From positions 806,001 to 870,000 of the forward strand of contig NZ_JACGWU010000001.1 of the NCBI RefSeq assembly GCF_014137865.1: a DNA stretch of 64,000 nt. The letters run 5' to 3'. Under the pieces are notes generated by a model that was not told where the DNA came from, searched no databases, and saw only the letters and a list, made by a program, of their open reading frames with translations. Positions 36,217 to 40,977 of the stretch are shown here, in pieces. The translations under genes and the position numbers were made by a program. The first letter of the stretch is position 1, and every line of letters starts with the position of its first letter. This DNA is from Alpinimonas psychrophila. GTDB lineage: Bacteria; Actinomycetota; Actinomycetes; Actinomycetales; Microbacteriaceae.

Positions 36217-36325
36217 CGCAACATATTCTGTGTTTTTACGCAACAAACCCTCCGGGGCACTTCGGTCTGTTGCATCACGCGTAACAGGCCCGGCGCGGTG
36301 AGTGCCTGACGGTAATCTAGACAGC

Positions 36326-37024
36326 ATGCCCGAAACAAACGCCCCCGTGCCCGAAGACGCCGTTTTTGAATCCGAAACCGGCTCCGAGGCCGCAGCACCC
36401 GAATCGCTAGCCCCTGCGACGGAGCACTACTTCTCGCCTCAGCCTGTCGGCGACTTCAAAACCGCCGAGATCGAGGTCAGCCTCGCCGGGCGCGAGCTCA
36501 CGATCGAGACCGCGGGCAGCATCTTTAGCCCCGAGCGCCTCGACATGGGGACCGACGCACTCATGCGAATCGTGCCCCAAACTCCCGAAACGGGTAACTT
36601 TCTTGACCTCGGATGCGGCTGGGGACCCCTCGCCATCACCATGGCCCTTGAGGCTCCCGACGCCGCCATTTACGCTATTGATGTCAACGAACGAGCGCTC
36701 GAACTGACGCGCCGTAACGCTAAGCGCCTGAAGCTGGCCAACATCCACGTGTCAACGCCTCAGGATGTTGCGGCCAACGTCACGTTCGACATCATCTGGT
36801 CCAACCCGCCTATTCGCGTGGGCAAGGCCGAGTTGCACGCGATCATGGAGCAGTGGATCCCTCGCCTCGTCGTGGGGGGCATCGCATACTTCGTGGTGGC
36901 CAAGCACCTCGGTGCCGATTCCTTCGAGAAGTGGCTGCGCGCCGAGTTCGCAGGTGCCTACGATGTTTTCCGCGAGGACCACTACAAGGGCTTCCGGGTC
37001 GTGAAGGTCACGCGCCTTTCGTAA
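36326..37024 (+). CDS. Class I SAM-dependent methyltransferase, RsmC-like
   Basis: 232 residues. After a ~35-residue acidic linker, the SAM-binding motif FLDLGCGWGPLA is near residue 95 and the base-methylation motif WSNPPIR near 155, as in RsmC/RlmG-type rRNA guanine-N2 methyltransferases. Only one MTase domain is present, so it corresponds to the C-terminal half of RsmC. A TAATCT box seven bases before the ATG hints at a leaderless mRNA. Target nucleotide is inferred from family only. Confidence 0.9.
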   Translation: MPETNAPVPEDAVFESETGSEAAAPESLAPATEHYFSPQPVGDFKTAEIEVSLAGRELTIETAGSIFSPERLDMGTDALMRIVPQTPETGNFLDLGCGWGPLAITMALEAPDAAIYAIDVNERALELTRRNAKRLKLANIHVSTPQDVAANVTFDIIWSNPPIRVGKAELHAIMEQWIPRLVVGGIAYFVVAKHLGADSFEKWLRAEFAGAYDVFREDHYKGFRVVKVTRLS

Positions 37025-37089: not shown

Positions 37090-37205
37090 GGTTCCAGAGT
37101 CACAGTGCCAAGTACCTAGCTTGCTGTGCGGCAACCCCCTTCCATCGAGTGGGGTGCCCTAGGGGAAGAACCGGCCCGTCGGCACCAGCTGTCGGGCAAG
37201 TCGAT
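37090..37205 (+). ncRNA. SAM-IV-like (SAM-I/IV clan) riboswitch
   Basis: Helix P1 is GGTTC (37090-37094) with GAACC (37168-37172). The core words GCGGCAACCCCC and GGGGTGCCC...GGGGAAG match the SAM-I/SAM-IV binding core. A downstream hairpin GCCCG/CGGGC (37175-37179 with 37192-37197) and a possible pseudoknot CTTGC (37120-37124) with GCAAG (37196-37200) fit the SAM-IV layout and not plain SAM-I. It is found 40 bases before the start of the 91-aa ORF. Confidence 0.8.
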
Positions 37206-37238
37206 GGAGGGCCCCGCCCTCCTCACACTCCAGAGGAG
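37206..37238 (+). promoter_or_regulatory. Expression platform with ribosome-binding-site sequestor
   Basis: CTCCTC (37219-37224) can pair with the Shine-Dalgarno GAGGAG (37233-37238) across an 8-nt loop, hiding it. Alternatively GGAGGGC (37206-37212) pairs with GCCCTCC (37216-37222), which would free it. No U-run terminator is present, so control would be translational. The mutually exclusive pairing is read by eye; the direction of the SAM effect is not known. Confidence 0.6.
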
Positions 37239-37244
37239 ACTCCC

Positions 37245-37520
37245 ATGTCGGAAAACACCATGCCCTACACCGACGGTCTTGGCAACTATGACCGCGTTCA
37301 GCACGCCCGCGAAGAAGCCCTGTGGGCGCCGCTCTCCCCGGGCGAAAGGCGCCAATGGTCGCAGTGCCTCGTCGATTTTCGCCCCGACCGTGAAACCCCC
37401 ATGACGAACCGCATGCTCGACTCCATGATGGGTCGTTACGGAGTCATCAGTCTCGAGCGCTGGGTCGAGCCCGTGCTCGCCTTTGACGCGGCCCGTTTCT
37501 CCGCGCAAGATTGGCGTTAA
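37245..37520 (+). CDS. Unrecognised 91-aa protein under SAM riboswitch
   Basis: 91-residue soluble protein with ATG at 37245 and AGAGGAG six bases upstream. It is rich in Arg, Trp and Met and shows LSPGERRQWSQCLVDFRPDRETP and YGVISLERWVEPVLAFDAARF. No signal, membrane segment or known domain is visible. It is the only gene behind the riboswitch (the next gene is 109 bases away with its own ribosome binding site). Genes under SAM riboswitches normally act in methionine, SAM or sulfur metabolism, so that is the inference. The frame extends upstream to 37149 through the riboswitch, which I reject. Confidence 0.8.
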   Translation: MSENTMPYTDGLGNYDRVQHAREEALWAPLSPGERRQWSQCLVDFRPDRETPMTNRMLDSMMGRYGVISLERWVEPVLAFDAARFSAQDWR

Positions 37521-37628
37521 CTGCACTTTCTGCAACAAAAGCAATCCTTCGCGCGCAATCGAGAATTGGCGAACACTGAAGCCGATAGTGCTACCGCGAA
37601 TCCACCCCTCAATTTAAGGAAACCTCCT

Positions 37629-38820: not shown

Positions 38821-40977
38821 CTAGGACTCCTGCAATTCCTCCTGCACAGCCGCGTCAGCGTTGAGCGACTCGAGATAGTCCTGCCGCACGTCAGACAAAC
38901 AGCGATCACTTTCCATGTCGACAAGCCAAAACCACCACCCGCCCTCGGACTGATTACCGGTAACGGCTCTTGCCGCAGCGCTCAATGTCTCGAATCGTTC
39001 CTCCCCAAGGAAGATTCCACCGTCTTCGCTGATCTGGCATCTTTCTCCGCGCTTAGCAACGACTCGAGCGAAGAGATCTTGCCCCGGCGACAAGAGCCCG
39101 GCCCGGACTAACTCAGAGACTGTCACTCGGTACGTTGCAAGTTCACTTGTGCCCGCGATGACACCGAAGTGGCCAACCGGAACGGGCCAAATCTGGAGGA
39201 TGTCGTCAATCATGCTGACCGTTCGCGCATGGATTCTCTCGTCATCCCAGTCCTTTTCTCCCTCTTCGCAGACTTGCCGGGTGAGGAGCAAAGTCGTGAA
39301 TTTAGAAAACGACTTCTTTTTTCCCTTCTCGCCCTCCCAGGCACCATTCGACACCTTGCTATTGAGAGCCTGTGTGATGAGAGTGAGGTTTCCCAATGTC
39401 TGAATCGTGTCGTCTCGCAAGACTCCTTGTTCGTCGATTTCAGCACCGGGCCAGAAGGCTCGCCACTCTTGGGGCATGACGTGTTCGATTGTGCAGGCTC
39501 CCCGCACCACACGCTGCACATCCAAAGGAGACCTTTGATCGAACCCTCGACGATGATCTTCGATGGCCTCAAGGACCATCCGCAGTCTTCCCCGAGCGAA
39601 GCGACGATAAATTGGCAGTGTCTTGAGTTCTCGTCGAATCTCAGCGTCGCCCGGCCAGTAAGTATTGGGGCTATCTTGCCGAGCTAGCGTGTCACGAATC
39701 GTCGTTCCTGCTGTTTCTCGAGGAGCAGCACTTGCAATTTTCATCATGTCAACAATGAATCTGTTGTATGCCTTCGTCGATCCGCGCACAAAAGCACGCC
39801 GCACAAGCCAGCTCTCCAGACTAACGAGTGCAAGGTTAAGTTGGGGTCCAGGTATTTTCGCCAACTCAGGGTCGAGCAACCACAGCAACAAGGGCTTAAC
39901 GACTTCCGAATCAAGCGTGGCAGTGCGATAAACGAACATGTTGACTCGGTTAAGGGGGCCATCGGCAACAGCTGCGCCCTCAGTGAAATCCCGGTAAATA
40001 CCGGCTGACTCACGCACCTTCGGTAAAAGTGCATCCACCGGTGTGCTCGCATCCGTCACGTGATGTTTAAATTGTGAGAACACTTCTCGCGCCGGCACGT
40101 CCTTGAGCGTCTTTGAGACGAGCCACTGCGTCAGAAAGAGTGAACTGCGGCTGTAGAGGATGCGGCCGGCCGACACTTCCTTCTCCCAAAATGGGGTCTC
40201 GAATTCCTCCCAATACTTGCGATACGCCTTCTCGGACTCCGCTGGTGATGCTTCAAGCCTTTGGAATACGAAATTCTTGATGAGATCCGCAGCAGTGAGT
40301 GGAGTTCCCCGGGCATTGAGGGTCTCAAAGATTTCTTGAGCGTCCTCGTCGACCTGGAGATCAATGACGACAATCTGCAAATAGTTACTGATGGTCTGCA
40401 CGAGAGCTGTTGCGCGCGTTTCGGAGTCACCCTCTTCGAGCCAAGCGCCGATCTCGCCAGAGAAGAACTTGTGCGCAAGCGCCATTCGGCTTGAAGCTGC
40501 TTTCAAGGCCGTGTAGTCAACAGGGGTGGGAGCAGACATGACTTCGTTGAACGCTGCACGATCTCTGTTCGTTGGCCAGACCTTGAACTCATCCTCTTTG
40601 GTATTAGTGAAGTAGACGGGATTCTGCACAAGACCCAACACCTGTTTTGCGAGGTTCTCGAAGCCGGCAGTCTGAACACGATCGTGTACCGCGTCGAGAA
40701 ATAGTTGAAGGGTGGTCAAGCGCTGCTGACCGTCAATAATGGTGCGAACGCCAAGCGTGCCAATCTCTGTCTGCTGCTGCTGAAGAACGACCGCCCCGAG
40801 GAAATGAGGAGTTGCTTGCTCGTGCCGCTCGACCCGCCCAGCCACTCGACGTATGTCATCCCACAAAGGAGCCCATTGTCCTTCTTGCGACCAGACGTAG
40901 GGCCGTTGAAACAAAGGAACCAAAAGGCGCTGCGGGTTGAAGAAGATTTCTTGAGGTGTCTTTACTTGAGTGAGCAA
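38821..40977 (-). CDS. GmrSD-like DUF262/DUF1524 protein with RAMA-like C-terminus
   Basis: 718-residue predicted NTP-dependent nuclease of the GmrSD (type IV restriction) class, which cuts modified foreign DNA. The DUF262 part has PLFQRPYVW near residue 20, IIDGQQRLTTL near 80-90 and NARGTPLTAADLIKN near 220. The DUF1524 HNH-like nuclease part has EHVMPQEW near 500 and LGNLTLITQALNSK near 527. Residues ~610-690 (LVRAGLLSPG ... ISEDGGIF ... SAAARAVTG ... GWWFWLVD) look like the RAMA domain. It is transcribed toward copy A, 20 bases away. All motifs seem intact. Confidence 0.85.
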   Translation of the reverse strand: MLTQVKTPQEIFFNPQRLLVPLFQRPYVWSQEGQWAPLWDDIRRVAGRVERHEQATPHFLGAVVLQQQQTEIGTLGVRTIIDGQQRLTTLQLFLDAVHDRVQTAGFENLAKQVLGLVQNPVYFTNTKEDEFKVWPTNRDRAAFNEVMSAPTPVDYTALKAASSRMALAHKFFSGEIGAWLEEGDSETRATALVQTISNYLQIVVIDLQVDEDAQEIFETLNARGTPLTAADLIKNFVFQRLEASPAESEKAYRKYWEEFETPFWEKEVSAGRILYSRSSLFLTQWLVSKTLKDVPAREVFSQFKHHVTDASTPVDALLPKVRESAGIYRDFTEGAAVADGPLNRVNMFVYRTATLDSEVVKPLLLWLLDPELAKIPGPQLNLALVSLESWLVRRAFVRGSTKAYNRFIVDMMKIASAAPRETAGTTIRDTLARQDSPNTYWPGDAEIRRELKTLPIYRRFARGRLRMVLEAIEDHRRGFDQRSPLDVQRVVRGACTIEHVMPQEWRAFWPGAEIDEQGVLRDDTIQTLGNLTLITQALNSKVSNGAWEGEKGKKKSFSKFTTLLLTRQVCEEGEKDWDDERIHARTVSMIDDILQIWPVPVGHFGVIAGTSELATYRVTVSELVRAGLLSPGQDLFARVVAKRGERCQISEDGGIFLGEERFETLSAAARAVTGNQSEGGWWFWLVDMESDRCLSDVRQDYLESLNADAAVQEELQES

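Follow-up and report, generated by a model that had tools for sequence, protein, structure and literature searches.

Results

The window analyzed, a stretch of 64,000 nucleotides from Alpinimonas psychrophila (contig NZ_JACGWU010000001.1 of assembly GCF_014137865.1, positions 806,001–870,000, forward strand), harbors a SAM-IV riboswitch aptamer at 37091–37208 on the plus strand. The aptamer is followed by a Shine-Dalgarno sequence, GAGGAG, read from the sequence at 37233–37238 (+), 6 nt 5′ of the ATG codon of an open reading frame of 91 codons (37245–37520, +). A gene for a 718-residue DUF262/GmrSD-type protein, named by reading of its sequence, is present on the opposite strand at 38821–40977. 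As the first-pass annotation had stated, no methionine or cysteine gene is present downstream of the 91-residue ORF, as judged from the ORFs of the window.

Structure of the aptamer

The SAM-IV class (RF00634) was reportedly described by Weinberg et al. in 2008. The first-pass annotation proposed a SAM-IV-like riboswitch with a visible P1 helix, SAM-binding core, and downstream hairpin. The class assignment was borne out by cmscan, which aligned the region to the full RF00634 model (positions 1–116) with a score of 79.1 bits (E = 2.1 × 10–12) for a gathering score of 38 bits, and all three elements were found. This aptamer is the only SAM-IV copy of the genome, and its leader is 97.5% identical to that of a sister species. 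P1 is formed by GUUC (37091–37094) and GAAC (37168–37171), the core segments CGGCAACC, GGUGCC, and GA.GA are intact, with CGGCAACC preceding GGUGCC, and the cmscan alignment places the P5 hairpin, named according to PMC6890682, at 37174–37197 (+).

In the SAM-IV structure, PK-1 joins the P2b loop to the strand before P1 and PK-2 joins the P3 side to the 3′ end that follows P5 (PMC6890682). Both pseudoknots were found in the window. The 5′ strand of PK-1, CCUAG (37115–37119, +), was read from the sequence together with its partner CUAGG (37159–37163), and the pair covaries in relatives, the partner changing along (CCUGG/CCAGG). Complementarity of loop and tail revealed PK-2, comprising UCCAUCGA in the P3 loop (37141–37148, +) and UCGAUGGA (37201–37208, +). 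In 87 non-redundant leaders, the loop-tail score was 9.15 for the leaders' own partners versus 8.30 (sd 0.16) when tails were swapped between leaders, and compensatory changes were detected, such as CCAUUGA/UCAAUGG and CGCUGA/UCAGCG. A further pseudoknot, CTTGC/GCAAG, claimed in the first-pass annotation, did not withstand comparison: full pairing is possible in just 3 of 75 related leaders, and CTTGC (37120–37124) is the 3′ strand of P2. The SAM-I/IV variant (RF01725) differs from SAM-IV by the absence of PK-1, the presence of a P4 helix, and an unsplit P2 (PMC6890682). This identity was ruled out, PK-1 being present and RF00634 having prevailed in the clan comparison. The riboswitch of the window is an ordinary member of the SAM-IV class.

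The same SAM-IV subtype is located directly upstream of metK in Canibacter zhoujuaniae (L169:4153–5473) and also in L051. Because the core segments are intact and the subtype precedes metK in C. zhoujuaniae, SAM is the likely ligand.

Expression platform

The sequence that follows PK-2, UCGAUGGAGGGCCCCGCCCUCCUCACACUCCAGAGGAGACUCCCAUG, contains two hairpins identified by a layout search and by folding. The first, an anti-sequestor (37206–37222, +) pairing GGAGGGC (37206–37212) with GCCCTCC (37216–37222), would free the Shine-Dalgarno sequence. The second, a sequestor (37219–37238, +) pairing CTCCTC (37219–37224) with GAGGAG (37233–37238), would hide it. The two are mutually exclusive since the middle strand is common to both, and the 5′ arm of the anti-sequestor additionally overlaps the 3′ strand of PK-2. 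The anti-sequestor appears in the minimum-energy fold with the PK-2 strand free; the sequestor appears once the PK-2 strand is kept unpaired. A mutually exclusive helix able to hide or free the Shine-Dalgarno sequence, as had been surmised from the sequence of the window, therefore exists. It also recurs: in a strict search, in which the exclusive helices had to end in the Shine-Dalgarno zone, the three-strand layout was present in 39 of 79 related leaders versus 7.3 expected from shuffles, and is thus absent from approximately half of them. Keeping the PK-2 strand unpaired decreased the computed accessibility of the Shine-Dalgarno sequence of the window from 0.40 to 0.13. Over the leaders, the shift in the mean was small (0.39 to 0.34; Wilcoxon P = 0.016 in a run in which the Shine-Dalgarno sequence was picked by anti-Shine-Dalgarno pairing, after an earlier run with a cruder choice had not reached significance, P = 0.16). 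With shuffled linkers, accessibility was unchanged.

The three-strand layout predicts a translational OFF switch under SAM, the direction of switching and its dependence on the ligand both being inferred. Binding of SAM would allow PK-2 to tie the P3 loop to UCGAUGGA, thereby taking away the 5′ arm of the anti-sequestor, so that CTCCTC would be available for binding to GAGGAG and translation would be turned off. Without SAM, the anti-sequestor would form and the Shine-Dalgarno sequence would be released.

A protein family associated with the riboswitch

The first-pass annotation found no recognizable domain in the ORF, in agreement with searches of Pfam, NCBIfam, PHROGs, and PADLOC, which all returned no match. 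Scanning the contigs of close relatives with the 91-residue protein as the query also gave no match. Unlike this query, a pattern of the riboswitch recovered homologous loci. The pattern of the aptamer subtype drew 112 stretches of reference genomes, and an iterated profile of 136 positions matched the ORF with an E value of 6.1 × 10–17. The ORF belongs to an unnamed, all-helical, and fast-evolving family, designated SAM-IV-associated protein, family A/B, in this work. Members of the family are very divergent (ca. 15–30% identity). The profile search of relatives identified a 31% identical homologue in another genus; this copy and a copy from the same genus are both located behind SAM-IV.

In Actinobacteria, a member of this one superfamily lies behind 89 of 115 riboswitches of the window subtype, in Microbacteriaceae, Brevibacterium, Rhodococcus, Speluncibacter, Glutamicibacter, Sanguibacter, Flaviflexus, Trueperella, and Helcobacillus. 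Among 400 Microbacteriaceae genomes, the family is patchily distributed (34 genomes with a profile hit at E < 10–3), and SAM-IV is immediately upstream in 31 of these 34, an association that is not fully independent as the seeds of the profile were themselves riboswitch loci, which also inflates its hypergeometric P of 10–23. The first-pass annotation had raised the question of whether the gene always follows this riboswitch. It does so in these 31 genomes and across many genera, with a few exceptions: near the family homologues of G237 and G403, no SAM-IV was detected even when the threshold was relaxed to E ≤ 1. The refuting observation named in that annotation, a homologue elsewhere that always lacks the riboswitch, was therefore not made. 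Inside the Microbacteriaceae-like group, the gene after SAM-IV nearly always encodes an unknown protein of 120–260 residues; outside this group, SAM-IV often precedes classical genes, such as those for metY-type enzymes.

Searches with the family against Pfam, NCBIfam, PHROGs, and PADLOC returned nothing convincing; PADLOC gave a single marginal match (E = 0.0076) for 17 members. No recognizable sulfur or SAM enzyme domain was detected in the profile libraries searched, and a sequence profile search of the PDB revealed no relative. The riboswitch pattern was unmatched in viral contigs and the family protein was unmatched in phages. No paper in the literature searched connected SAM-IV to these genes or to defence.

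Further unknown families, among them families C and D, are located behind SAM-IV. Family D, characterized by the motif GRGYT..V..NYPGWTWN and unrelated to A/B, was found in L155, L160, L139, L133, L207, and L177, and is fused to a family A domain in the latter; its AlphaFold model was poor (pLDDT 62.7). A third group, whose proteins carry the motif C..Y.PGH..H at the N-terminus, is found behind SAM-IV in other members of the order (L048, L053, L061, L062, and L063). Pfam searches with the other SAM-IV-controlled proteins returned nothing convincing. In Glutamicibacter uratoxydans (L148:291–546), two tandem aptamers of the subtype separated by ca. 200 nt precede one gene.

Truncation of the gene in A. 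psychrophila

A same-genus sister copy (L056, identical to L213, from MAG Jr-03apr18-52) is 195 residues long and is 74% identical to the 91-residue protein over 89 residues. Alignment of the two sequences revealed that the window matches L056 up to the residues AQDW, where similarity ends. In comparison to the sister, the window lacks ca. 1 kb upstream from the TM2-domain gene, including ca. 100 C-terminal codons and a neighboring regulator gene, and the deletion junction with replaced DNA is located at 37514–37628 (+). The ORF thus retains the core domain of the family (profile positions 2–72 of 136) and is truncated at the C-terminus; by this alignment, its size of 91 residues is specific to the shortened copy of the window. 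The first-pass annotation was right in describing an unnamed protein controlled by SAM-IV and overlooked that this ORF derives from a longer gene by truncation.

For the 91 shared codons of the window and sister copies, dN/dS was 0.22 (dS 0.99), bracketed by the values of two neighboring genes (0.115 and 0.33). Together with the 97.5% identity of the leaders, this ratio indicates that the gene was under selection. The ORF stops inside a putative helix-turn-helix (HTH), the second helix and the wing being gone and the second half of the predicted fold being absent. Because of this loss, the window copy is probably impaired, or reduced to the core domain. Core-only members (family B) occur in Leucobacter and others. 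Intact ORFs also encode short homologues, for example L220 (135 residues).

Predicted fold

AlphaFold2 modeling of a full-length member (L149, 142 residues) with an alignment of 39 sequences provided a mostly helical model (pLDDT 92, pTM 0.85). Foldseek searches of the PDB and BFVD with this model gave nothing below an E value of 0.001. Re-alignment of the fold matches led to a list dominated by MerR-type DNA-binding domains (CueR, CarH, TnrA, GlnR, and RacA), the match to CueR being weak (VIA Z 3.4, rmsd 3.1, 61 residues; Foldseek E > 1). The MerR-like stretch covers residues 61–142 of L149, and the sequence pattern is consistent with the MerR fold (helix-GFTP-helix, a wing, and D.W..W..L..G..P..A...L). 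The Pfam MerR profile did not match any of 17 members. The C-terminal half of the family may bear a weak resemblance to a MerR-type winged helix, which is a lead rather than a family assignment.

Genomic neighborhood

Homologues of the DUF262 protein of the window were detected by phmmer near the same riboswitch cassettes (L237, L251, L254/L157, L255, and L146) and in none of 20 control regions; DUF262 by itself was counted in 4 of 20 SAM-IV loci versus 0 of 20 controls. PADLOC (E ≤ 10–8) identified, around 20 SAM-IV loci, BREX components (PglX, PglZ, and BrxL), AbiEi/AbiEii, the DISARM protein DrmD, a type III methyltransferase, type IV restriction, and DUF262-type proteins; the 20 control regions, located 200 kb away, gave generic matches alone. 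Strong defence matches were present at at least 7 of 20 loci versus 0–1 of 20 controls (Fisher P = 0.008–0.04), a comparison of 20 versus 20 loci in which part of the assignment of matches to loci relied on inspection of the sequences. The DISARM-like locus of this sample (L253) encodes a family C protein, not a member of family A/B. Housekeeping genes adjoin the chromosomal loci of Brevibacterium and Rhodococcus. Variable regions also gather many unrelated genes, which tempers the link with defence.

A conjugative Rhodococcus plasmid also carries a family member with SAM-IV upstream. The public record names the plasmid member (L276; NZ_CP126457.1, 90200–90658) a "mandelate racemase/muconate lactonizing protein", an annotation that is probably erroneous. 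An RsmC-like methyltransferase gene (36302–37024) is located just upstream of the riboswitch in the window, and a homologue occupies a position downstream of the family gene in G047 (L041/L240). The family gene of Flaviflexus (L131) is followed, ca. 1.6 kb downstream, by an apparent CRISPR array consisting of an ORF with repeated WLPLIGEHFIEA.

Discussion

SAM-IV riboswitches generally go with sulfur and methionine genes. The novelty here lies in the genes found behind the riboswitch. They encode a fast-evolving family that has no name and whose leaders repeatedly contain the three-strand expression platform, and other unknown families are likewise located behind SAM-IV. The first-pass annotation had put the ORF forward as a candidate gene of SAM or sulfur metabolism. 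This proposal is unsupported by the divergence of the proteins, the lack of an enzyme fold match, the patchy distribution, the presence of a copy on a conjugative plasmid, and the higher number of defence neighbors than in controls; the family gene is not evidently metabolic.

Our preferred reading, to which we would give somewhat less than an even chance, is that of a SAM-repressed accessory gene from a mobile and fast-evolving family that probably binds DNA and acts in genetic conflict rather than in methionine metabolism. The cassette formed by the riboswitch and the gene would travel through Actinobacteria with a tendency toward variable, defence-rich regions, and the accessory factor would be produced when SAM drops, owing to starvation or to depletion of SAM by a phage. 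Degradation of SAM by phage SAM lyases is known (PMC7877911) and BREX methylation consumes SAM (PMC11842806), which makes a SAM-triggered conflict gene plausible, as is a conflict or defence role for the family. A bolder version appears improbable to us: actinobacterial SAM-IV riboswitches would be sensors of intruders or stress, and a drop in SAM, due to a phage SAM lyase or heavy use by methyltransferases, would induce mobile DNA-binding proteins acting in, or regulating, neighboring defence systems, both SAM-dependent and other.

The family could instead contribute to SAM or methionine homeostasis as a regulator or small adaptor, its proximity to defence genes being due to chance. Control by a SAM riboswitch, the metY-type enzymes and metK found under SAM-IV in the same order, and a lowish methionine content (1.25% versus 1.67% in control ORFs), expected of proteins made under methionine shortage, all point in this direction. 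We nonetheless consider this possibility rather unlikely, given the spread limited to 34 of 400 genomes, very fast divergence, the plasmid copy, the lack of a conserved sulfur neighbor gene, and the control of unrelated families (A/B, C, and D) by the same riboswitch. A mobile and fast-evolving cassette that is frequently lost or, like the window copy, shortened could also be selfish or neutral cargo, with a riboswitch that silences a mildly harmful small protein in well-fed cells, the protein being of no benefit to the host. Purifying selection between the window and sister copies and the near-identity of their leaders, as well as an architecture kept across many genera, argue against cargo, which has in our view a slim probability.

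A separate question, either answer to which would fit all of these readings of the family, is whether the window copy alone is a decaying pseudogene preceded by a relic riboswitch. This is a serious possibility, if not quite the expected outcome, as the deletion removed ca. 100 codons, among them those for the wing and the second helix of the HTH. The leader and Shine-Dalgarno sequence are, however, fully conserved, the 91 codons evolved at a dN/dS of 0.22, although most of the divergence may pre-date the deletion, and core-only or short members exist elsewhere in the family.

Beyond A. psychrophila, a SAM-IV subtype defined by its sequence controls an unnamed family in Microbacteriaceae, Brevibacterium, Rhodococcus, Glutamicibacter, and others. 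The riboswitch provides a handle since SAM should allow the genes to be induced or silenced, making their function testable. If the association with defence regions is true, genetic conflict would be connected with the sensing of a core metabolite.

Three known systems are closest to the cassette. Genes for regulators and accessory proteins of defence islands, which neighbor BREX, AbiE, and GmrSD/DUF262, are similar in their adjacent location in several genomes, but no PADLOC family matches the SAM-IV-associated protein, and the literature searched yielded no description of such genes under a metabolite riboswitch. MerR domains (CueR 4wls, CarH 5c8d, and TnrA 4r22) would share with the family, over residues 61–142 of the model, a helix-G(F/V)(T/S)-helix, a wing, and a helix pair. 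They differ in that the match has a Z of just 3.4 with no Pfam sequence match, and in that the family has extra N-terminal helices and no effector domain. The riboswitch itself matches the full SAM-IV model (RF00634; cryo-EM structure, PMC6890682) in P1, P2, P3, P5, PK-1, PK-2, and the core sequences. It departs from that model system in controlling an unnamed protein family rather than sulfur-metabolism genes and in the overlap of its PK-2 strand with the anti-sequestor of the Shine-Dalgarno sequence.
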